NCBI GenBank assembly: GCA_028705955.1
Contig: JAQWCN010000006.1
Location: 1 to 38,339, forward strand
DNA length: 38,339 nucleotides
Reading direction: 5' to 3'
Origin: Eubacteriaceae bacterium
GTDB taxonomy: Bacteria; Bacillota; Clostridia; Eubacteriales; Eubacteriaceae
The notes beneath the pieces are model-generated. The model saw nothing but the letters and a program-made list of their open reading frames with translations, was not told the origin of the DNA and made no database searches. Shown piece by piece: positions 21,024 to 37,091 of the stretch. Both the position numbers and the translations under genes were made by a program. Each line of letters opens with the position of its first letter. Positions within the stretch are counted from its first letter, which is position 1.

Positions 21024-21665
21024 TTATTTTCCCGCCTTTTCGCCAGCTTCTTTTGCAGATTGAATCATATACGTGATTGACGTTGCCCCGGGATCCTGAA
21101 AACCAATGCTTCTGTCCCCCAGATAACTGGCACGTCCTTTGGTCGCTTTAATGGTCTTGGTGTAATCCACACCTTTCCACGCCGCCTTTTCTGCTACCGT
21201 TAAAGCTTCCGTAATGGTTTTTCCGGAAGCAATGCTTTCGTTATAAGCATCCTTCGCCGGTACAATGGCATCGAGCATGGTCTTTTCCCCGGTTGTCGCT
21301 TTTCCTCTACTGACGATCCCTTCGATGGCCGCATCAAACATTTTACCAATATCTTCAGCACTCAATTCTTCTTCGCCCTTCATGGCCATCCCTGCACGCA
21401 TAAAAGCCGTTCCGTACAATGGTCCGGAAGCACCGCCAACCGTTGAAACTAAAGTCATTCCCACGCCCTTAAGAATCGCATCAATCGTTTTGTCCTGAAA
21501 AGTGGGAAGTTTTTCACCGACGGCCTTCATGCCGCGATTCATATTGATCCCATGATCTCCATCACCAATCGCCTGGTCCATATCCGTCAGTTCCTGGCGA
21601 TGTTCTTCCATTTTCTGATCAAAAATCTGTACAAAATTCAATACATCTTTTTTTGTTGCCGCCAT
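21024..21665 (-). CDS. dhaL: DhaL, ADP-binding subunit of DHA kinase
   Basis: A 213-residue all-helical subunit. D30, D35 and D37 in DMDQAIGDGDHG match the aspartates that hold two Mg2+ and the tightly bound ADP, which acts as a cofactor rephosphorylated by DhaM. It transfers phosphate to dihydroxyacetone bound on DhaK. The C-terminus has the SYLGDRSIGFQDPGA signature. It lies 103 bases downstream of dhaK, with a terminator-like hairpin between them, and two bases before dhaM. Confidence 0.93.
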   Translation of the reverse strand: MAATKKDVLNFVQIFDQKMEEHRQELTDMDQAIGDGDHGINMNRGMKAVGEKLPTFQDKTIDAILKGVGMTLVSTVGGASGPLYGTAFMRAGMAMKGEEELSAEDIGKMFDAAIEGIVSRGKATTGEKTMLDAIVPAKDAYNESIASGKTITEALTVAEKAAWKGVDYTKTIKATKGRASYLGDRSIGFQDPGATSITYMIQSAKEAGEKAGK

Positions 21666-21702
21666 ATTGTTGTCCTCTTTTCTTGCAAAGTTATTTTTCT
21701 TA

Positions 21703-21738
21703 AAAATAATGACAGACCCAAATGTCTGCCATTATTTT
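21703..21738 (-). terminator. Intercistronic hairpin between dhaK and dhaL
   Basis: A 15-pair stem (21703-21717 with 21724-21738) with a six-base loop. The single plus-strand mismatch becomes a G-U pair on the minus-strand RNA, so the stem is fully paired in the transcript. The 3' arm ends in U-rich sequence. It looks like a partial terminator or processing site that could lower dhaL-dhaM expression relative to dhaK. Confidence 0.6.
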
Positions 21739-21768
21739 ATCATCAATTAATTTTAACGTAAAGAGTTA

Positions 21769-22758
21769 TCAGTCCTGAGTTAAGGCAATGGTATCTGCCG
21801 GTGCCAGAAGCAATTCTTTCATTTCGTCATCCAGTTTAAGCAGTGAAATCGAAGCCCCTGCCATATCGATGGATGTCATATAATTGCCGACATAGGTTTT
21901 AACAATTTTAATGCCTTTTTCTTTTAAGACATCGTGAACTCGTTTGTTTAAGATATACAGTTCCATGGCTGGTGTTGCACCGCTGCCATTAACCATCACA
22001 GCCACTTCTGAACCGCTGTAATCAACGGAATCATTCATAATCTTATCAAGAAGATGGTCGACAATCGCATTGGCCGGCTGAATCTTTTCGCGGCTGGTTC
22101 CCGGTTCCCCGTGAATCCCGATTCCCAATTCCATTTCGTCTTCACCAAGTTCAAATCCTGGTTTACCAGCAGCCGGAACGGTCGACGGTTTAAGCGCCAC
22201 ACCCATGGTCCGTACATTGGCGATTACTTTTTCAGCAACAGCTTTAACATCCGCCAAATTGGCGCCTGCTTCTGCTTTTGCTCCAGCGATTTTATGAATA
22301 AAAATGGTCCCCGCAACACCCCGGCGACCAGTGGTGTACAAGCTGTCTTCTACAGCGACATCATCGTTGGAAATCACTTCTGCTGTTTCGATATCATCTG
22401 CCATTTCTGCAGCCATTTCGAAGTTCATCACATCGCCAGTATAGTTTTTGACAACCATTAATACCCCTTTGCCTGCATCTGCAGCCTTAATGGCTTCCAA
22501 AATCTGATCTGGGGTTGGTGACGTATAAACCGCTCCCGGTACAGCAGCATCGAGCATCCCTTTCCCGACAAAACCGGCATGGGTTGGTTCATGTCCACTG
22601 CCGCCTCCGCTGATCACGGCAACTTTGCCTTCCTTTTTTTCTGAGCGGACAATCACATCCAACCCTGGAAGTCTTTTGACATATTCGGGATAAGCGTCGA
22701 CCATACCTTCTAGCATTTCATTTTCGACATTTTCTACATTATTGATAAACTTCTTCAT
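21769..22758 (-). CDS. dhaK: DhaK, dihydroxyacetone-binding kinase subunit
   Basis: A 329-residue subunit that binds dihydroxyacetone as a hemiaminal on H216 (GIGIHGEPG). H56 in GGGSGHEPTH and D109 in YTGDVMNF are the other active-site residues. With DhaL and DhaM it makes dihydroxyacetone phosphate from DHA, with PEP as the donor through the PTS. The start at 22758 is chosen over 22782 because GGAGGG lies seven bases before it. A TATAAT -10 (22799-22804) sits just upstream, overlapped by a TTTGAAACGTGTT element. The glycerol dehydrogenase that would supply DHA is not in the window. Confidence 0.94.
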   Translation of the reverse strand: MKKFINNVENVENEMLEGMVDAYPEYVKRLPGLDVIVRSEKKEGKVAVISGGGSGHEPTHAGFVGKGMLDAAVPGAVYTSPTPDQILEAIKAADAGKGVLMVVKNYTGDVMNFEMAAEMADDIETAEVISNDDVAVEDSLYTTGRRGVAGTIFIHKIAGAKAEAGANLADVKAVAEKVIANVRTMGVALKPSTVPAAGKPGFELGEDEMELGIGIHGEPGTSREKIQPANAIVDHLLDKIMNDSVDYSGSEVAVMVNGSGATPAMELYILNKRVHDVLKEKGIKIVKTYVGNYMTSIDMAGASISLLKLDDEMKELLLAPADTIALTQD

Positions 22759-23086
22759 CTGAAAACCCTCCTCGTTTGGCATTTAGATTTCTGAAATTAT
22801 TATAACACGTTTCAAAAATTTGAATAGTCTCATTTTTTGCATTTTCAAAATTTTACTCTTGGACAACAAAATATCTTCCTTATCCCAATGAAAAACGATT
22901 AAAATCCACAAAGACGGATGGTACTCGCACCAAAACAGCGTCATCATCAAAAAACCCTTAATTTTAACCAAAACGTGATTGAAAATAATTTCATGATGTA
23001 AATTTTTCATCCTTTCGTGAAAGTGGCATTCTCATGCGGTTTTCTAATTGTTAAATAAATAACTTATTTTTTTTGATTGTAAACCC

Positions 23087-23373: not shown

Positions 23374-24879
<1,506 letters not shown>

Positions 24880-24907
24880 TAACAAATGATGTAAAAACGC
24901 TGTATTT

Positions 24908-24937
24908 TTCCGGCGGGTTTTCCCGCCGGAATCTTTT
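24908..24937 (+). terminator. Terminator after glpK
   Basis: A perfect ten-base GC-rich stem (24908-24917 with 24922-24931) with a TTTT loop is followed by TCTTTT. It separates glpK from glpP, so glpP depends on read-through or on a promoter I could not identify in 24940-25000. Confidence 0.82.
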
Positions 24938-25008
24938 GGCCTTTTTATAACAAAAGACGCTCTTTTTGCCTCTTTAGATCACCTTTCAAGGAGGAATTGA
25001 TTCACAAT

Positions 25009-25617
25009 ATGTCAACAAGGAAAAGTTTTCTTTTGTTTCAAGAGAATCCGATTATCGCTGCCGTTAGAAATCCAAGGGATATATACGATGCGGTTGCATC
25101 TCCCTGCCAAATCATTTTTCTTTTAACCGGCAATATCTACAATTTAAAACAGATGGTCGATTATATCAATGCATCTGGAAAGCATGCATTTGTTCATCTC
25201 GATCTCGTTAAAGGATATGCCCAGGATCATTACTTTATCAAGTATCTTAAAGAAGAAATTAAACCGACAGGTGTTATTTCCACACGGAATTCCTTAATTT
25301 CCCGGGCAAAACAAGAAGGCCTCATGACTATTCAACGGCTTTTCCTTCTCGATTCTTCCGCAATGGATGTCACCATTACATCGGCACGAAAAATTAAACC
25401 GGACGCAGTGGAAATATTACCAGGACTCGTTCCCAAACTGATTCACAAAGTACGGGATGAGTTAACGCTTCCGATTATCACCGGTGGTTTTATTGAAACA
25501 GGAGAAGAAGTCAGATCCTGTATTGACGCTGGTTCCATTTCTTCCAGCACATCTCATAAACCGTTATGGGATGAATTCGATGAAATGAAAAACTATATCA
25601 CAGAATCACTATCCTGA
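25009..25617 (+). CDS. glpP: Glycerol-3-phosphate-responsive antiterminator GlpP
   Basis: A 202-residue protein of the G3P_antiterm family, a TIM-barrel-like regulator. FVHLDLVKGY, GVISTRNSLISRAKQEG, QRLFLLDSSA, VEILPGLVPK and TGGFIETGEEV are characteristic. With glycerol-3-phosphate, GlpP of Bacillus binds leader RNA and prevents termination. The ATG at 25009 lies 14 bases after AAGGAGGA, a rather long spacing. A TTG at 24997 would be too close to the site. Two leaders with a shared 12-mer flank this gene, one before glpK and one directly after it, and are its likely targets. Confidence 0.9.
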   Translation: MSTRKSFLLFQENPIIAAVRNPRDIYDAVASPCQIIFLLTGNIYNLKQMVDYINASGKHAFVHLDLVKGYAQDHYFIKYLKEEIKPTGVISTRNSLISRAKQEGLMTIQRLFLLDSSAMDVTITSARKIKPDAVEILPGLVPKLIHKVRDELTLPIITGGFIETGEEVRSCIDAGSISSSTSHKPLWDEFDEMKNYITESLS

Positions 25618-25645
25618 AATGTGATGCAATGACAATTAAATGAAT

Positions 25646-25717
25646 GGCAATGGAGAGCCGCACATTTTCAAGACGAGAGGTCAGTCGCCACCGTCACGGA
25701 GAATTGTGTGGTTTTTT
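25646..25717 (+). promoter_or_regulatory. Attenuator leader of the G3P dehydrogenase genes
   Basis: GGC (25646-25648) and GCC (25657-25659) bracket AATGGAGA. The 12-mer GGAGAGCCGCAC at 25652-25663 differs from the glpK-leader 12-mer only by two transitions. The terminator's 5' arm CCGCACA (25658-25664) pairs with TGTGTGG (25705-25711) and is followed by T6 (25712-25717). The GCC of the small hairpin and the CCG of the terminator arm overlap, so the two structures exclude each other, as expected for antitermination. The terminator loop of about 40 bases is unusually long. Confidence 0.7.
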
Positions 25718-25760
25718 ATTTATAAAAAATACAATTATTGTTAATCAAGGAGGGTTAATT

Positions 25761-27239
25761 ATGTATGATATCGCTATAATAGGTGCTGGTATCGCCGGTT
25801 CCTACGTAGCCCGGGAGTTATCCCGTTACCAGTTGGATGTCGTTTTACTGGATGGAGAAAATGATGTTGGCAACGAAATTACGATGGCCAACTCAGCGAT
25901 CGTTCACGGTGGTTTTGATGCTCCATCTTATAAGTTAAAGGGAAAATTCAACGCTCCCGGGAACATCATGTACGAAAAAATGTGTCGGGATTTATGTGTT
26001 CCTTATAAACGCACCGGTTCACTTGTCGTCGCTCATACCGAACACGATATGATGACGTTGCATAACCTGTATCAGAACGGCCTCAAAAACGGGGTTCCGG
26101 ATCTGCGCATTATGTTTGAAGATGAAGTTCATGAAATCGAAGAAAATGTTTCACCGGATATTTGCGGTGCTTTGTATTCCGGTACTGCCGGTTTGGTCTC
26201 CCCTTTCGAACTGTGTACAAAAGTTGCTGAAAATGCAGTGGATAATGGTATTACCTTAAAGCTCAATCACATGGTCACCAACATTGCAAAAAAAGATGAT
26301 GGCACTTTTAAAATTGAAACCACTGAAGAAGATATCGAAGCAAGATACGTTGTTAATGCCGGCGGTGTTTATGCCGATGATATTTATAAAATGGTCGGTG
26401 ATCCTTACTTTAAGATTTTAGCCCGTCGTGGAGTTTACTTTATCTTTGATAAAGAAATCGGCGATTTGGTTCACAATGTTATTTTCCCATGCCCGACTAA
26501 AAACGGTAAAGGAATTCTCGTCTCCCCAACCGTCCACGGCAATCTGCTAATCGGTCCAGATGCTATGCCTGTTGATAAAGGTGACATCTGCACAACCCAG
26601 GATCGTTTGGATTATATTAAGGAAAACGCGTTAAAGAACTGTCCGAAACTGGCTCAGTACATGAACAAGATTATCCGTTCCTACGCGGGAACCAGAAACA
26701 CACCAGTAGCAGATACTTACACCACTACTGATGGCGACTTTATTATTGAAGAATCACCGGTCAAAGGTTTTGTCAACTTTGCCGGATATGAATCACCAGG
26801 GCTCACCTCCATTCCTGCTTCAGGATATTATGCTGTCGAAGAAGTTATCCTGCCAATGCTTAAGAAGGATGGGATCGAACCCAAAGAAAATGAAAACTTT
26901 AATCCAAAGACACGTCCGCACATTTATTTTGCAGATCTGCCGGAAGAAGAAAAGAAAGCCCTCATTGCCAAAGATCCAAAATACGGCAAAATCATTTGCC
27001 GCTGTGAAACCGTAACAGAAGCTGAAATTATCGATGTGATTCACAGAAACGTCGGCGCAACAACTGTAAAAGGGGTTAAAAAACGCTGCCGTCCAGGTGC
27101 AGGCCGCTGCCAGGGTGGTTTCTGCTCACCCAGAGTTGTCGAAATTCTGGCCCGTGAACTCGGATGTGAAATGGATGATATCATGTATGATGCCAAGGAT
27201 AAGGGTTATATCCTTAAGGGCAGAACAAAAGAAATTTAA
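25761..27239 (+). CDS. GlpA/GlpO-like glycerol-3-phosphate dehydrogenase
   Basis: A 492-residue FAD protein of the DAO/GlpA family. GAGIAGSYVARELSR (about 8-22) is the FAD fold. The last ~100 residues form a BFD-like [2Fe-2S] domain with CRC and, about 33 residues on, CRPGAGRCQGGFC. It probably oxidises glycerol-3-phosphate to dihydroxyacetone phosphate, and GlpK and GlpP next door support the substrate. The start at 25761 follows AAGGAGGG. A longer in-frame start at 25644 is rejected because it would lie across the leader terminator. It has no membrane segment. It forms a set with the next two genes, as seen in Thermotoga and many Clostridia. Confidence 0.85.
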   Translation: MYDIAIIGAGIAGSYVARELSRYQLDVVLLDGENDVGNEITMANSAIVHGGFDAPSYKLKGKFNAPGNIMYEKMCRDLCVPYKRTGSLVVAHTEHDMMTLHNLYQNGLKNGVPDLRIMFEDEVHEIEENVSPDICGALYSGTAGLVSPFELCTKVAENAVDNGITLKLNHMVTNIAKKDDGTFKIETTEEDIEARYVVNAGGVYADDIYKMVGDPYFKILARRGVYFIFDKEIGDLVHNVIFPCPTKNGKGILVSPTVHGNLLIGPDAMPVDKGDICTTQDRLDYIKENALKNCPKLAQYMNKIIRSYAGTRNTPVADTYTTTDGDFIIEESPVKGFVNFAGYESPGLTSIPASGYYAVEEVILPMLKKDGIEPKENENFNPKTRPHIYFADLPEEEKKALIAKDPKYGKIICRCETVTEAEIIDVIHRNVGATTVKGVKKRCRPGAGRCQGGFCSPRVVEILARELGCEMDDIMYDAKDKGYILKGRTKEI

Positions 27240-27257
27240 CGGGGAGGATGCTAAACA

Positions 27258-28529
27258 ATGATTTATGATGTTGTTATTTTAGGCGGAGGCCCTGCGGGTC
27301 TTGCTGCTGCTGTCGAAGCAAAAAAAGAAGGCGCGGAAAAAGTGCTGATTCTGGAACGTGACCGTGAATTAGGTGGAATCTTAAACCAATGTATTCACAA
27401 TGGTTTTGGACTGCATACTTTTAAAGAACAATTAACCGGCCCGGAATATGCTGAACGGTATATTGATATGGCCAAAGAAGCCAATATTCCATATGAACTC
27501 AACACCATGGTTCTCGATATGGAAGACAAAGGCGATACCAAATTGATCCACGCGATCAATGAAGAAAAAGGATATCAGGCCATTGAAACCAAAGCCGTTG
27601 TTCTGACCATGGGCTGCCGGGAACGGACAGCCGGTGCCATTGGCATCCCGGGCTTCCGTCCTGCTGGCGTGTTTACTGCCGGAACAGCTCAACGCTTCAT
27701 TAACATGGAAGGTTATATGACCGGCAAAGAAGTGGTTATTCTGGGTTCTGGCGATATCGGTCTGATTATGGCCCGCCGGATGACTCTGGAAGGTGCCCAT
27801 GTTAAAGCCGTTTGTGAAATTATGCCTTATTCCAATGGATTAACCAGAAACATTGTACAATGTCTGGAAGATTACGATATTCCTTTGAAACTTTCCCATA
27901 CCATTACCTTTATCCATGGCAAAGACCGGATCGAAGGCGTTACGGTGATGAAAGTGGATGACAAACTCAAACCGATTCCGGGTACCGATGAATTCATTCC
28001 TTGCGACACCTTGTTGCTCTCAGTTGGATTGATTCCGGAAAATGAAATTTCCCGGGGCGCCGGCGTTGAAATCGACCGCCGCACCAACGGACCTGTCGTT
28101 ACTGAAATGCGTGAAACCAGTATTCCTGGCGTATTTGCCAGTGGCAATGTGGTTCATGTCCACGATTTGGTCGACTTTGTGTCAGAAGAATCTGAACTGG
28201 CCGGCAAAGGTGCCGCCCGCTACATCAAAGGCCATTTGGAATCCGACAAGAATTATGACACGGTTAATGGTGACGGGATCAGCTATGTTGTTCCCCAGCA
28301 TGTCACGGTTGGCAATATCGATAAAGATTTGACGTTCTACATGCGTGTCCGGAAAGTCTTTGCCGATTCAGTCGTGAATGCTTACATTGGCGATAAGAAA
28401 ATTGCGACAAAGAAAGCACCAAAATTTGTCCCGGCTGAAATGGTCAATTTTAAAATTAAAAAATCTGTTCTGGAAGAAAATCCAGATGGCGAAATTACAT
28501 TCGTCGTGGAACCGAAGGAGGCTAAATAA
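27258..28529 (+). CDS. NAD(P)/FAD oxidoreductase of the G3P set
   Basis: A 423-residue pyridine-nucleotide-disulfide-type flavoprotein. GGGPAGLAAAVEAKKEG (about 9-25) binds FAD, and GSGDIGLIMARRMTLEGA (about 158-175) is a second dinucleotide fold, presumably for NAD(P). MGCRERTAGA is conserved in this branch. The C-terminus (about 340-423) has a small beta-rich domain of unknown role. Placed 18 bases after the GlpA-like gene and two bases before the DUF1667 gene, it probably moves electrons from G3P oxidation to NAD(P). GGGGAGG lies ten bases before the ATG. Confidence 0.8.
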   Translation: MIYDVVILGGGPAGLAAAVEAKKEGAEKVLILERDRELGGILNQCIHNGFGLHTFKEQLTGPEYAERYIDMAKEANIPYELNTMVLDMEDKGDTKLIHAINEEKGYQAIETKAVVLTMGCRERTAGAIGIPGFRPAGVFTAGTAQRFINMEGYMTGKEVVILGSGDIGLIMARRMTLEGAHVKAVCEIMPYSNGLTRNIVQCLEDYDIPLKLSHTITFIHGKDRIEGVTVMKVDDKLKPIPGTDEFIPCDTLLLSVGLIPENEISRGAGVEIDRRTNGPVVTEMRETSIPGVFASGNVVHVHDLVDFVSEESELAGKGAARYIKGHLESDKNYDTVNGDGISYVVPQHVTVGNIDKDLTFYMRVRKVFADSVVNAYIGDKKIATKKAPKFVPAEMVNFKIKKSVLEENPDGEITFVVEPKEAK

Positions 28530-28531
28530 TT

Positions 28532-28891
28532 ATGAAGAAAAATATAATCTGTATTTCATGCCCAATCGGATGCCATCTCACCGTTGAAGGTTCAGACGGT
28601 AACTATACCGTAACGGGTAATACATGTAAAAACGGGGAAATCTACGGGATTCAGGAAATGACGAATCCGCAGCGTGTGGTTCCCTCGACCGTTATCATTA
28701 AAGGGGCAATGCTCACCCGCTTGCCCGTCAAAACAGCGGATACGATTCCCAAGGCTAAGATCTTTGATGCCATGAAGGAAATTGATAAGGTTGTCGTTAA
28801 GGCTCCAATAAAGATGGGCGATGTTGTCCTGAAGGATGTCTGCGGCACCGGCGTTGACGTTGTTGCTACCAAGTCTATGCCTGCTGTTTAA
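28532..28891 (+). CDS. DUF1667 Cys-motif protein
   Basis: A 119-residue protein of the DUF1667 family, which is known for conserved CxxC pairs. Four cysteines, C7, C10, C14 and C32, form a probable Fe-S or zinc site; C104 (VCGTGV) is a fifth. No signal peptide. The rest is a compact beta-rich domain (PVKTADTIPKAKIFDAM is typical). It always travels with the two flavoproteins upstream in Clostridia and Thermotoga as far as I know, so it is probably a third subunit. Its role (electron transfer or assembly) is not established. AAGGAGG overlaps the previous stop. Confidence 0.85.
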   Translation: MKKNIICISCPIGCHLTVEGSDGNYTVTGNTCKNGEIYGIQEMTNPQRVVPSTVIIKGAMLTRLPVKTADTIPKAKIFDAMKEIDKVVVKAPIKMGDVVLKDVCGTGVDVVATKSMPAV

Positions 28892-32681: not shown

Positions 32682-33365
32682 TCAGGAAAAATCATCATAA
32701 GTCGTTTGTGTTCCCGGTTTTTTAATAATAAAACGGCTGTCCCACTGCCCGCTAACCAGCCGTTTCAACAGAGAAATATCTCCGGCAATACCCCTGGGCT
32801 TCAAGCCAAGACGCCTGGCCAACTGGCCGACGCGGTGCTTTTCCTGAGCAAAGGCATAAGCGCCGGTGTCGATTAAGAACAGCGCCTGATACCCTCCGTA
32901 AACCGCCCGGATCCAGTCTTCCATTTTTTTCGGGCCATACTGTCTGGCTACAGCGTCCAGGGATTTTTCCAGACTTTTTTCACCATTGAGCCACCCCCGG
33001 GTCAAAAAATATCCCCGGGTCCGCAGCCGCTCCAAATCAGGCTGGTTGTTTAACAACAAGGCAATACAATCCGCAGCTCTTGGAATCACCAGCCGCGCAT
33101 TGTCGCTTTTGATGCCCACCAAACCGCCCCCGCAGCACCCATATGCCAAAAGAATGGTATCCGCCTGCGTTTGGCTGTCGATGGTTTGCTGAATCATCTT
33201 GCGCATCTCATCCGGTGTGTCGTGTTTGACTGGAAGCCACCGCACTGCCAAACTGGAATGACAGGTTTCCATCGCTGCTGCCAGCTCGTCTTTTAGCGTT
33301 ACACAGGCGACAACGATCTGCCGTTCCAATTTTTTATTCCCGCTCTCTGAATCTTTTTTATTCAT
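32682..33365 (-). CDS. DUF1638 family protein
   Basis: A 227-residue protein with the DUF1638 hallmarks ILLAYGCCGGGLVGIKS and LVIPRAADCIALLL, plus VACVTLKDEL at the start and ALFLIDTG in the second half. The function is unknown. In methanogens and acetogens the family often lies beside corrinoid methyltransferase or dehydratase-type genes, and the conserved cysteines suggest metal or cofactor binding (inference). No ribosome-binding site precedes the ATG: the upstream sequence is TATACTTTATAATT, which looks more like a -10 region, so the message may have a very short leader. The gene diverges from the HgdB-like gene. Confidence 0.82.
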   Translation of the reverse strand: MNKKDSESGNKKLERQIVVACVTLKDELAAAMETCHSSLAVRWLPVKHDTPDEMRKMIQQTIDSQTQADTILLAYGCCGGGLVGIKSDNARLVIPRAADCIALLLNNQPDLERLRTRGYFLTRGWLNGEKSLEKSLDAVARQYGPKKMEDWIRAVYGGYQALFLIDTGAYAFAQEKHRVGQLARRLGLKPRGIAGDISLLKRLVSGQWDSRFIIKKPGTQTTYDDFS

Positions 33366-33471
33366 AATTATAAAGTATATAAAAAAAACCTGACTTTTAC
33401 ATTAAATCCCCTGTTCTGTTGGATTGAAACCTGTATCCATCTTTTATTCCTTCTCCCTTTTTGCTATAATG

Positions 33472-33480
33472 AATTTGAAA
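33472..33480 (+). promoter_or_regulatory. Extended -10 promoter of the hgdB-like operon
   Basis: TGC-TATAAT is an extended -10 box with a perfect hexamer and no clear -35 at 17 bases. Transcription should start near 33487, about 98 bases before the TTG start of the first gene. Confidence 0.5.
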
Positions 33481-33584
33481 ATGATATGGACAGATCGACG
33501 CCTTGCGTCCTGTTTTTATAAAATCACAATTTTAAATGCTGTTTATTCTCAACCGGATAGACACGCCATCATAAAGGAGTTTTT

Positions 33585-34850
33585 TTGGATATTATAAAAT
33601 GGTTTGGCGATCACGTTTCAACACTGGCCGGCAAAGACCCCGTAAAAGCACGCAGGCTGCTGCTTACGGGATACCGTGCCAATACGCTCATGCTCAAACA
33701 TACCACTCAAAATCAACCGTCCTGCCGGGGTGAAGGCGCCATCACGTTAATGAAGTTAATGATTGAAGCGTTGTCTCATCCTCAAAACGCGGCCATGGTC
33801 AGTCTTTTTATCCCCTGCGAACCGCTGCTGGCTGCCGGAATCACCCCTTATTCGGTGGAATCCATTGCTGCTTATCTGCTCGGGACCCGTTGTGAAACGC
33901 CCTTCCAGGAACTGGCTGCCGAACAGGGCATGCCGGAAACCCTGTGTTCTTATCACCGGACTTTTTTCGGTGCCGCCACAAACGGTTTGATTCCTCCCCC
34001 TGCCTTCATGCTCTACACCAATCTGGCCTGTGACGGCAACATGATCACCTTCCCCGCCCTCCAGGATCAATTTGCAATCCCCTCATTTTTTATTGACGTT
34101 CCCTGTGATCACACTGAAGACGCCGTGGCCGACGTTGCGGGGCAACTCCGGGAAATGGTCACCTTTATCGAGGACACCACGCATCAAAAGATTGACCCGG
34201 CCGCCCTTAAAAAAGCGGTCCGCCGCACCCGGCTCAGCCAAACGTATTATCAAACAGCTTTGGCCGTTTCCAAAAAACGCCGGCTCCCCGGCTCCGTCAC
34301 CGATGAAATGTACACGGCTCTGATGGGGCGGTGTATGCTGGGATCCCCCCAGGCCCTGGATTTTTTTTGCACCATGGCCCGGGATATTTCCGAACAGCCG
34401 GTTTTCACCGGCAAACGCCTGGTGTGGATTCATCTTATTCCCAATATGCAACCCGCCCTGCGCCAGATCATGAATGACAATCCTTCAGTTTGCATCACTG
34501 GCCTGGAATTGTGTTACGACAGCATTCTCATCCCTGCCGATGAAAATGACCCTTACCGTTCAATGGCCCGGCGCATGGTCTATTCCGGCTACAACGGCCC
34601 GGCCCGGTACCGGATTGACAACGCCTTAAACGTGGCCCAAACGACCGGTGCAGATGGCTGTGTCGTCTTTGCCCACTGGGGCTGCAAAGAAACCCTGGGG
34701 GCGACAAAACTAATGAAAGACGCATTGGAGGCGGCGGGTTATCCCACCTTAATTTTGGACGGGGACGGTTGCTGTCCGGCAAATACCGGTGATGGCCAGA
34801 TGGCCACCCGGCTCCAGGCATTTTTAGAACTATTGGAGGAACCCTCATGA
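33585..34850 (+). CDS. HgdB-like 2-hydroxyacyl-CoA dehydratase family protein
   Basis: A 421-residue HGD-D family protein. Likely cluster cysteines are C121 (LCSYHR), C149 (NLACDG) and C367 (AHWGCKET), the positions that hold the Fe-S cluster in this family. Eleven further cysteines are present, including C396-C397. Known relatives dehydrate 2-hydroxyacyl-CoAs, reduce benzoyl-CoA, or, as double-cubane cluster proteins (YjiM type), reduce small molecules. No CoA-transferase or acyl-CoA dehydrogenase is adjacent, which argues against an amino-acid fermentation role and leaves the substrate open. The start is TTG with AAGGAG six bases before it. It overlaps the next gene by four bases (ATGA). 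Confidence 0.82.
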   Translation: MDIIKWFGDHVSTLAGKDPVKARRLLLTGYRANTLMLKHTTQNQPSCRGEGAITLMKLMIEALSHPQNAAMVSLFIPCEPLLAAGITPYSVESIAAYLLGTRCETPFQELAAEQGMPETLCSYHRTFFGAATNGLIPPPAFMLYTNLACDGNMITFPALQDQFAIPSFFIDVPCDHTEDAVADVAGQLREMVTFIEDTTHQKIDPAALKKAVRRTRLSQTYYQTALAVSKKRRLPGSVTDEMYTALMGRCMLGSPQALDFFCTMARDISEQPVFTGKRLVWIHLIPNMQPALRQIMNDNPSVCITGLELCYDSILIPADENDPYRSMARRMVYSGYNGPARYRIDNALNVAQTTGADGCVVFAHWGCKETLGATKLMKDALEAAGYPTLILDGDGCCPANTGDGQMATRLQAFLELLEEPS

Positions 34851-36499
34851 TCACCTTTGTATGCAAATACACCCCGGTTGAACTCTTTGCCGGTTTCGGT
34901 GTTAAAACGACTGTATTTGACAAAAGCGCCGACTCCTCCAGCCGAAGCGATCAGGCCACCCACGCAAATCTCTGCGGCTTTGGAAAATCCCTTTTGGAAT
35001 CCGCCCTTGCCGGGGAAATTCCGGAACTGGTGCTTGTCAATTGCTGTGATGTCATGCGCCGGGCCTACGACGTGCTCAACACCCAGAGCTGCTGCCGTTT
35101 CCTCTACCTGCTTGATCTGCCCCATACCGACGGTCCTTGTCAGATCGAACGCTTTGCCCGCTCCCTCACAGCCCTCCAAAAAGCCTACGCCCAATACAGT
35201 GGACGACCTTTTAACACTCCGGCTTTTCTGGCCGCTTTTTCAGATCCACCTCAGAACCGCGCTCCTTATGTCGCCATTCTTGGTGCCCGGACCGGCAAGG
35301 ATCTGGAAGCACTGATCGCGACAAACTGCCCTTACCCTGTCAAAAATTTAACCTGTGTGGGAAACCGACAGCTCCAGAGCCCACCCGCTTCATGTTATGA
35401 GACAGACCCCGACGCTCTCATGTACGGGTATGCCCAAAACCTGCTTAATCAAATTCCCTGCCGGCGCATGGCCGATAAATCCGGCCGCCGCTCCTTGTTT
35501 TTAGATCCTGCCCTTCGCGGGATTATTTACCACACCATTCAATTCTGTGACTATTACACCCTGGAATATACCCAGGCTGCCCGAACCGTTTCAGTTCCCA
35601 TTACAAAAATTGAAACAGATTATACACTGCACAACGAAGGCCAGCTCCGAACACGGATCGATGCTTTTAACGAAACCCTTCAAGTTCAAAGCCACTTTCA
35701 GGAAAGGAATCACCCCATGGATCATAAACATTATTTTGCCGGAATAGACAGCGGCTCTACCAGCACCGATGCCGTCATCATCGACGGTTACGGCAACCTT
35801 CTCAGCACGGTCATTCTGTCCACCGGCGGCGGTGCTAAACGGAGTGCGGATGAGGCATTGGACCAGGCTCTGGACAAAGCTCACCTGACCGGGGAACAGC
35901 TCAGCCGGGTCATTGCCACCGGTTACGGCCGGGCCAACATCACCATCGGAGATGAGGAAATTACGGAGATTACTTGTCATGCCAAAGGCGCCCATTATCT
36001 CTGTCCCGATGCCCGAACGGTTATCGATATCGGCGGTCAGGACAGCAAGGCGATTCGTATTGACGCCAGTGGCGCGGTTAAAAACTTTGTTATGAATGAC
36101 AAATGTGCCGCCGGCACCGGCCGGTTTTTGGAAATGATGGCCCGAACCCTGGGTCTGAGCCTGAAAGCCCTGTGCGATCAGGGACAAAAATGGCAAAAGG
36201 AAATCACCATCTCCAGTATGTGCACCGTTTTTGCAGAATCAGAAGTTGTCTCCCTGGTCGCTCAAAACATCCCTGTGCCGGATATCATCCACGGTCTGGA
36301 TAAAGCCGTCGCGACCAAAGTGGCCACCCTGGTCAGCCGGGTCGGCGGGGAAGATACGTATATCATTACTGGCGGCGTCGCCAAAAATCCCGGTGTCGTT
36401 TCTGCCATTGAAAACCGGCTTCACACCCGGCTTTTTGTCAGTGATCAGGCCCAGATTTGCGGAGCCCTGGGCGCGGCGCGCATCGCCGCCGGATTATAA
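34847..36499 (+). CDS. HgdA-like domain fused to HgdC/BadF-type activase
   Basis: A 550-residue fusion. Residues 1-290 are a short HGD-D domain with candidate cluster cysteines C43, C66/C67 and C234 (TIQFCDYY), ending in the family's hallmark ETDYT...GQLRTRIDAF. Residues 291-550 are an ASKHA ATPase activator: GIDSGSTSTDAV, TGYGRANI, DIGGQDSKAI, NDKCAAGTGRF (C420), SSMCTVFAESE (C459) and GGVAKNPGV. C420 and its partner C459 should hold the dimer's shared [4Fe-4S] cluster. Activators use ATP to push an electron into the dehydratase, and the two are usually separate proteins. An ATG at 35717 (M291), preceded by AAAGGA, could also yield a free activator. Confidence 0.85.
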   Translation: MITFVCKYTPVELFAGFGVKTTVFDKSADSSSRSDQATHANLCGFGKSLLESALAGEIPELVLVNCCDVMRRAYDVLNTQSCCRFLYLLDLPHTDGPCQIERFARSLTALQKAYAQYSGRPFNTPAFLAAFSDPPQNRAPYVAILGARTGKDLEALIATNCPYPVKNLTCVGNRQLQSPPASCYETDPDALMYGYAQNLLNQIPCRRMADKSGRRSLFLDPALRGIIYHTIQFCDYYTLEYTQAARTVSVPITKIETDYTLHNEGQLRTRIDAFNETLQVQSHFQERNHPMDHKHYFAGIDSGSTSTDAVIIDGYGNLLSTVILSTGGGAKRSADEALDQALDKAHLTGEQLSRVIATGYGRANITIGDEEITEITCHAKGAHYLCPDARTVIDIGGQDSKAIRIDASGAVKNFVMNDKCAAGTGRFLEMMARTLGLSLKALCDQGQKWQKEITISSMCTVFAESEVVSLVAQNIPVPDIIHGLDKAVATKVATLVSRVGGEDTYIITGGVAKNPGVVSAIENRLHTRLFVSDQAQICGALGAARIAAGL

Positions 36500-36512: not shown

Positions 36513-37091
36513 ATGAACAAAAAAGAATTAAGAAAAACCATTCTGGAAAAAAGAAAAGCTTCAGCCGATGCCGCCCGGGACCGGGCCATTGTCGGCAATC
36601 TGATGGCCAGTGCCATGTACCGCAATGCCCGGTGCATCATGACAACCATTAGCTTTGGTGACGAAATTGATACCCACGGACTCATCGAGCGGGCCCTTGG
36701 CGGTGCCAAAACCATTGCCGTTCCCCGGTGTGATCCATCCACCCACACCCTCTCCGTCCATGGCATCCGCCAATTTCCAGACGATTTGATCCCCGGCCAT
36801 TATGGTATCCCGGAACCCGGACCGGATACCCCGCTTCTGGATCTTCACACCATCGACCTCGTCATTGTCCCTGGAATGGCTTTTAACCTTGAGGGCCATC
36901 GTCTTGGCTACGGCGGCGGCTATTACGACCGCTTTTTAACCGGTCTTTCCGGCCGGACGATCACCGTCGCCCTCACCCCCGAATCCCTGATTTTACCAAA
37001 ACTCCCTGTTGAGACCCACGACCAGCCAGTGCACTACCTGGTTACTGAAAAACGCATTATTCGTACGCATTGCACGGGAGTTTCGCATTGA
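36513..37091 (+). CDS. 5-formyltetrahydrofolate cyclo-ligase
   Basis: A 192-residue enzyme that turns 5-formyl-THF and ATP into 5,10-methenyl-THF, returning a storage or by-product folate to the one-carbon pool. The signature GYGGGYYDRFL is near residues 137-147, and KKELRKTILEKRKA opens the protein. The start at 36513 has AGAGGA before it; a longer reading frame back to 36231 lies inside the fusion gene in another frame and is rejected. It is 13 bases after the fusion gene and overlaps folC by four bases (TTGA), so all are probably one transcript. Confidence 0.92.
   Translation: MNKKELRKTILEKRKASADAARDRAIVGNLMASAMYRNARCIMTTISFGDEIDTHGLIERALGGAKTIAVPRCDPSTHTLSVHGIRQFPDDLIPGHYGIPEPGPDTPLLDLHTIDLVIVPGMAFNLEGHRLGYGGGYYDRFLTGLSGRTITVALTPESLILPKLPVETHDQPVHYLVTEKRIIRTHCTGVSH

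Follow-up and report, generated by a model that had tools for sequence, protein, structure and literature searches.

The window analysed here comprises positions 1 to 38,339 of contig JAQWCN010000006.1 (assembly GCA_028705955.1) from a Eubacteriaceae bacterium whose genome is 87.65% complete, and the subject is a pair of genes within it that encode an HgdB-like protein and a fusion protein in which a second domain of the same family precedes an ATPase domain. A preliminary description made from the sequence had singled out these two genes together with a divergent DUF1638 gene, and all three are real open reading frames with the corresponding Pfam matches (DUF1638, PF06050, and PF06050 plus BcrAD_BadFG; Table 1). 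The TTG start position assigned to the HgdB-like protein is matched by its homologs, which begin MDIIK or MDIVH. As that description also held, the usual fermentation partners are missing: no CoA-transferase, acyl-CoA dehydrogenase or Etf gene adjoins the pair, whose flanks hold FtsX and PcsB beyond DUF1638 on one side and, beginning 17 bp downstream of the fusion gene, 5-formyltetrahydrofolate cyclo-ligase (MTHFS) and then FolC on the other. On the evidence presented below, the two proteins probably work together as a low-potential reductase driven by ATP, within the superfamily comprising class I benzoyl-CoA reductases, 2-hydroxyacyl-CoA dehydratases (HADs) and double-cubane cluster proteins (DCCPs).

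Conservation of the gene pair

When GTDB genomes were scanned with the fusion protein, 80 other loci were retained. Their identity to it is 37-55%, in almost every case along most of the protein, and they come from Lachnospiraceae, Oscillospiraceae, Coriobacteriia, Spirochaetes and further groups; the pair is conserved in many anaerobes, from the gut and elsewhere. An HgdB-like gene lies beside the fusion gene, or is at least detected within the fetched locus, in 79 of the 80, and across all loci the two genes overlap or are separated by no more than 30 bp in 72/87 homologous pairs. Clustering of all neighbours in the fetched loci revealed no third conserved gene, the largest other clusters being unrelated ABC transporter, MATE and peptidase genes, and the two genes therefore constitute an autonomous module.

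Ligand sets and folds of the two proteins

Of the two proteins, the stand-alone HgdB-like one is the catalytic subunit, of the alpha type, and resembles HadB and BzdO. It does contain the 14 cysteines counted in the preliminary description, but only three of them (C121, C149 and C367) are invariant among 78 homologs; because the other 11 vary, cysteine-richness was rejected as evidence for clusters. In profile alignments to PDB sequences and in the reference-family alignment, the three invariant residues fall on the [4Fe-4S] ligand columns of HadB, BzdO and MbdO, and the HgdB-like proteins follow the HAD alpha/BzdO pattern, including Glu92 as the equivalent of the catalytic Glu. In BzdO, C95, C128 and C380 hold the active-site [4Fe-4S]-OH2 cluster, and the acid/base residues are Glu65 and His131 (PMC11971306). 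Tyr123, like the three cysteines and the Glu, is common to HadB, and an invariant Asn152 stands where BzdO has His131; His283 and Trp365 replace a loop Gly and an Arg, respectively, that are conserved in HAD alpha. The distal double-cubane ligands are gone, the C205 column holding Asn in 13/13 sequences. The AlphaFold2 model (predicted local distance difference test, pLDDT, 94.9) matches HadB, MbdO and BzdO best in Foldseek (template modelling, TM, scores 0.72-0.81), and DCCP is also matched. In some Coriobacteriia (L042:5307-7942, L047:859-3493 and L049) two tandem HgdB-like catalytic subunits precede one fusion gene, as if one relay/activator served two catalytic subunits; in L042 and L047 the first of the two does not have the CSYH motif.

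Seven N-domain cysteines of the fusion are invariant among 84 homologs (C6, C43, C66, C67, C170, C205 and C234), and profile alignments to PDB sequences place all of these except C66 on the six [8Fe-9S] ligands of BzdN and DCCP, which in BzdN are C36, C73, C100, C263, C293 and C327 (PMC11971306). In the reference-family alignment all 13 fusion N-domains and all 12 DCCPs have the complete six-cysteine set, whereas at least two of the ligands are missing from HAD beta subunits (Pro in 10/11 and Gly in 1/11 at the C6 position; Ala in 8/11 at the C170 position). The N-domain lacks the middle helical domain, PF06050 being covered only at positions 1-127 and 225-342. The fusion is confidently modelled by AlphaFold2 (pLDDT 91.2), and Foldseek ranks DCCP first for its N-domain, followed by BzdN and HadC. 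The suspected kinship with double-cubane proteins thus belongs to this domain, which keeps all six ligands, and not to the 14-cysteine protein for which it had been proposed; the label HgdA given to this half was wrong, since it is DCCP/BzdN/HadC-like. The seventh invariant cysteine, C66, directly precedes ligand C67 in a CCD motif and is special to the fusion family, its place being taken by Thr in DCCP and Ser in BzdN; it may provide an extra ligand or have a redox role.

The remainder of the fusion is an ordinary ATPase of the HgdC type, which bears out the ATP-driven activator of the preliminary description. It scores 241.8 bits against TIGR00241 (cut-off 125.4), also matches 4eht (1.7e-64) and 1hux (1e-56), and has the ASKHA fold with two cluster cysteines per chain that characterises such activases; its Foldseek matches are HgdC and MbdQ, with a TM score of 0.94 to 1hux. 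Besides a short fragment, the source genome has just one further clear activase, a protein of 1428 aa that carries two BcrAD_BadFG ATPase domains and is encoded on another contig (L167:7453-11739; G000:C87).

Table 1. Features of the locus, in window coordinates
Feature	Position	Strand	Evidence or remark
DUF1638 protein	32682..33365	-	PF07796 E=2.4e-35; divergent neighbour, judged outside module
Ribosome-binding site AAAGGAG, 5 nt upstream of TTG start of catalytic subunit	33573..33579	+	sequence
HgdB-like catalytic subunit (alpha-type, HadB/BzdO-like), 421 aa, TTG start	33585..34850	+	PF06050 E=6.4e-63
Glu92	33858-33860	+	invariant; equivalent of catalytic Glu
Cys121, predicted [4Fe-4S] ligand	33945-33947	+	invariant in homologs
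Cys149, predicted [4Fe-4S] ligand	34029-34031	+	invariant in homologs
Cys367, predicted [4Fe-4S] ligand	34683-34685	+	invariant in homologs
ATGA overlap, catalytic-subunit stop/fusion start	34847..34850	+	read as translational coupling
Fusion gene, PF06050 + BcrAD_BadFG	34847..36499	+	BcrAD_BadFG E=6.3e-58
Fusion N-domain (residues 1 to about 293), DCCP/BzdN-like double-cubane subunit	34847..35725	+	invariant Cys, PF06050
N-domain Cys codons C6, C43, C67, C170, C205, C234	34862, 34973, 35045, 35354, 35459, 35546	+	aligned on [8Fe-9S] ligands
N-domain Cys codon C66	35042-35044	+	seventh invariant Cys
Fusion C-domain (residues about 296 to 550), HgdC-type ASKHA ATPase activator	35732..36499	+	TIGR00241 7.4e-72
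Cys420, predicted bridging [4Fe-4S] ligand	36104-36106	+	invariant
Cys459, predicted bridging [4Fe-4S] ligand	36221-36223	+	invariant
MTHFS, downstream flank of insertion	36516..37091	+	TIGR02727 1e-46

Lineage, mechanism and competing readings

The HgdB-like proteins form one clade that is sister to HAD alpha (support 100/99) and that stays outside HAD alpha, BzdO and MbdO (98-99) when the latter two are added, in a tree whose PDB sequences are partial, having been pieced together from HMMER alignments. The fusion N-domains likewise form one clade. Profile scores of the catalytic subunits are 98-135 bits against HAD alpha and 54-94 against DCCP, those of the N-domains 73-116 bits against DCCP and 15-58 against HAD beta, and none of the curated equivalog cut-offs is approached: the NCBIfam HadB/HadC models give 47 bits (cut-off 750), membership of the BzdN/BzdO or BcrB/BcrC models is not indicated (36.5 bits against a BzdO cut-off of 448.6), and the DCCP equivalog NF040772 gives 56 and 70 bits (cut-off 350). 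In the trees both subunits emerge as lineages of their own, outside the dehydratases, the benzoyl-CoA reductases and the DCCPs. Clear placement within the lactoyl- or 2-hydroxyglutaryl-CoA dehydratases, part of the outcome named in advance as overturning the reductase proposal, was not seen, both subunits lying outside the HadB/HadC clades.

In the mechanism we propose, two fusion chains would dimerise via their HgdC-type ATPase domains around a single [4Fe-4S] cluster bound by C420 and C459 of each chain, and ferredoxin or flavodoxin would reduce this cluster. ATP hydrolysis would then drive the electron to a double-cubane [8Fe-9S] cluster, predicted at the six aligned cysteines of that chain's N-domain, from which it could pass to the open-coordinated [4Fe-4S] cluster of the separate catalytic subunit (C121, C149 and C367). 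There a substrate would be reduced with the assistance of Glu92. The reaction is presumed to be a reduction because the characterised enzymes with a full double-cubane set, DCCP and BzdNO, are reductases.

A close parallel in division of labour is the class I benzoyl-CoA reductase BzdNO/MbdNO (PDB 8s02, 9g87 and 9gai), which uses the same family of ATPase activator and is likewise a heterodimer; in BzdNO the double-cubane ligand set is in one subunit and the three-cysteine [4Fe-4S] set and catalytic Glu are in the other. In the module, however, relay and activator are fused in one chain with a single activator gene instead of two, the relay subunit has no middle helical domain, the catalytic subunit belongs to a separate lineage, and no aromatic pathway accompanies the pair. 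DCCP/DCCP-R (PDB 6eno and 7yyl; NF040772) is the closest sequence and fold match of the N-domain, shares all six double-cubane cysteines with it, and is an ATP-dependent reductase of small molecules, as the pair may be; DCCP is a homodimer with a double cubane per subunit, whereas the pair would be a heterodimer in which the distal ligands are missing from the second subunit and the reductase is fused to the relay, and it scores well under the DCCP cut-off. HadBC/HadI and HgdAB/HgdC (PDB 3o3m, 4eht and 1hux) also combine an alpha-like catalytic subunit (three Cys, Glu and Tyr) with an HgdC-type activator, but in the module the place of beta is taken by a complete double-cubane subunit fused to that activator.

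These likenesses define the competing readings. One is that the pair is a true benzoyl-CoA-reductase-like enzyme whose substrate is a CoA ester of the aromatic or enoyl kind, which would make it a particular instance of the proposed reductase; the BzdNO-like separation of [8Fe-9S] and [4Fe-4S]-OH2 ligands and the retained catalytic Glu are consistent with it, but the catalytic subunit does not fall within the clade of BzdO, MbdO and HAD alpha, carries Asn152 in place of the BzdO acid/base His131, has no CoA ligase or ring-degradation gene nearby, and occurs in hosts that include genomes of about 1-2 Mb, all of which makes this unlikely. It is about as improbable that the pair is a dehydratase of the lactoyl-, 2-hydroxyglutaryl- or phenyllactyl-CoA type, in which the activator would supply a single electron and dehydration of the CoA ester by the catalytic subunit would proceed via a ketyl radical. 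The residues shared with HadB and its rank as best fold match of the catalytic subunit would fit such an enzyme; set against them are a partner subunit that retains the double-cubane set lost by HAD beta, the branching of both subunits outside the HAD clades, the His283 and Trp365 substitutions, the distant HadB/HadC scores and the lack of a CoA-transferase or other fermentation partner beside the pair. That all six [8Fe-9S] ligands are kept in the N-domain of every relative, and at least two are lost from dehydratase beta subunits, favours the ATP-dependent low-potential reductase that the preliminary description had preferred to a dehydratase.

Several observations weigh against the reductase assignment. 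Dehydratases are among the members of the sister clade of the catalytic subunit, and the reaction may therefore be formally non-redox; the N-domain joins DCCP weakly (81/69), a grouping that dissolves among DCCP and the beta subunits once BzdN is added; the neighbours of the module in the fetched loci conserve no gene pointing to a substrate; and the clusters and activity of the pair are predictions. It is possible, and put forward here tentatively, that the module represents a third type of double-cubane enzyme, to be set next to class I benzoyl-CoA reductases and DCCPs. Such an enzyme would be a deep-branching, ATP-driven reductase that is complete with its two genes and has relay and activator fused; it would act on a small molecule or cofactor rather than a CoA ester and be common in gut anaerobes. 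The open-access literature searched, outside which the key double-cubane reviews lie, yielded no description of the fused two-protein form, and the novelty of the arrangement is not thereby proven. To our knowledge double-cubane [8Fe-9S] clusters occur in very few enzymes, and we know of no physiological substrate for DCCPs. With its three parts encoded by two genes, the double-cubane ligands in one subunit and the active-site set in the other, the module offers a tractable system for the evolution and substrates of such enzymes, and since it is present in culturable gut bacteria (Blautia, Roseburia, Flavonifractor and Olsenella), a knock-out is feasible.

DUF1638 and the corrinoid question

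The preliminary description had linked DUF1638 to the pair. A hidden Markov model (HMM) search finds it in none of the 80 other fusion loci, and in seven related genomes (L134, L135, L138, L141, L146 and L149, plus L152 by HMM) DUF1638 lies between FtsX(-PcsB) and a divergent MTHFS-FolC pair, with spacings of 55-340 bp and no HgdB or fusion genes, although some of these loci show one side only; it adjoins MTHFS in the first six. One genome (G021) has this block intact and the module elsewhere. DUF1638 was therefore rejected as a functional partner and is a positional neighbour only, the window being the same FtsX-DUF1638/MTHFS-FolC block into which the module has been inserted, with DUF1638 on one side of it and MTHFS on the other. 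Other copies of DUF1638 (L136 and L147) follow genes that by eye resemble those for a corrinoid protein and a GntR regulator.

The association that DUF1638 does have is with RACo. Among 149 relatives (G000-G148) RACo_C_ter (PF14574) is present in 56/59 genomes with DUF1638 and in 33/90 without it (p=6e-14), and the pairing therefore holds in Clostridia. This strong co-occurrence extends a link reported for alpha-Proteobacteria; in Phaeobacter, B12-dependent methionine synthesis needs both DUF1638 and a RamA-like protein (PMC5764234). For the module no association of this kind is seen (Fisher p=0.52 for co-occurrence). A misleading adjacency is corrected here: DUF1638 tracks with RACo and not with the module.

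These relations bear on a further reading, in which the pair would use ATP to reactivate corrinoid proteins or MetH, working with DUF1638 and replacing RACo/RamA in the source organism. Such activators also use ATP-dependent electron transfer, for cofactor reactivation, and partner DUF1638 in genomes. Besides the Phaeobacter precedent, the idea draws on the presence in the source genome of both DUF1638 and MetH (an 829-aa frame on contig C133; L156, G000:C133); no activation-domain gene was found beside MetH, and neither RACo_C_ter nor the MetH activation domain PF02965 was matched in this genome at its 87.65% completeness. The missing RACo is, however, expected because the genome is incomplete: from incompleteness alone, RACo should be missing from about 3.9 of the genomes with DUF1638, and three such genomes are seen. 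DUF1638 adjoins the module only in the source genome, and the module has no positive link to corrinoid proteins: B12-binding_2 is undetected in 12/50 module genomes, a figure blurred by gaps in metagenome-assembled genomes, and its frequency is below background in relatives (p=0.018). A dedicated corrinoid-reactivase role is disfavoured by these 12 genomes and appears very improbable, and replacement of RACo by the module was rejected.

In the window as a whole no structured RNA reached the gathering score. A GlpK/GlpA-type operon at 23386-28891 encodes glycerol kinase, an FAD oxidoreductase with a BFD-like [2Fe-2S] domain, a second FAD oxidoreductase and DUF1667, and is accompanied by Dak1/Dak2 genes at 21024-22782.

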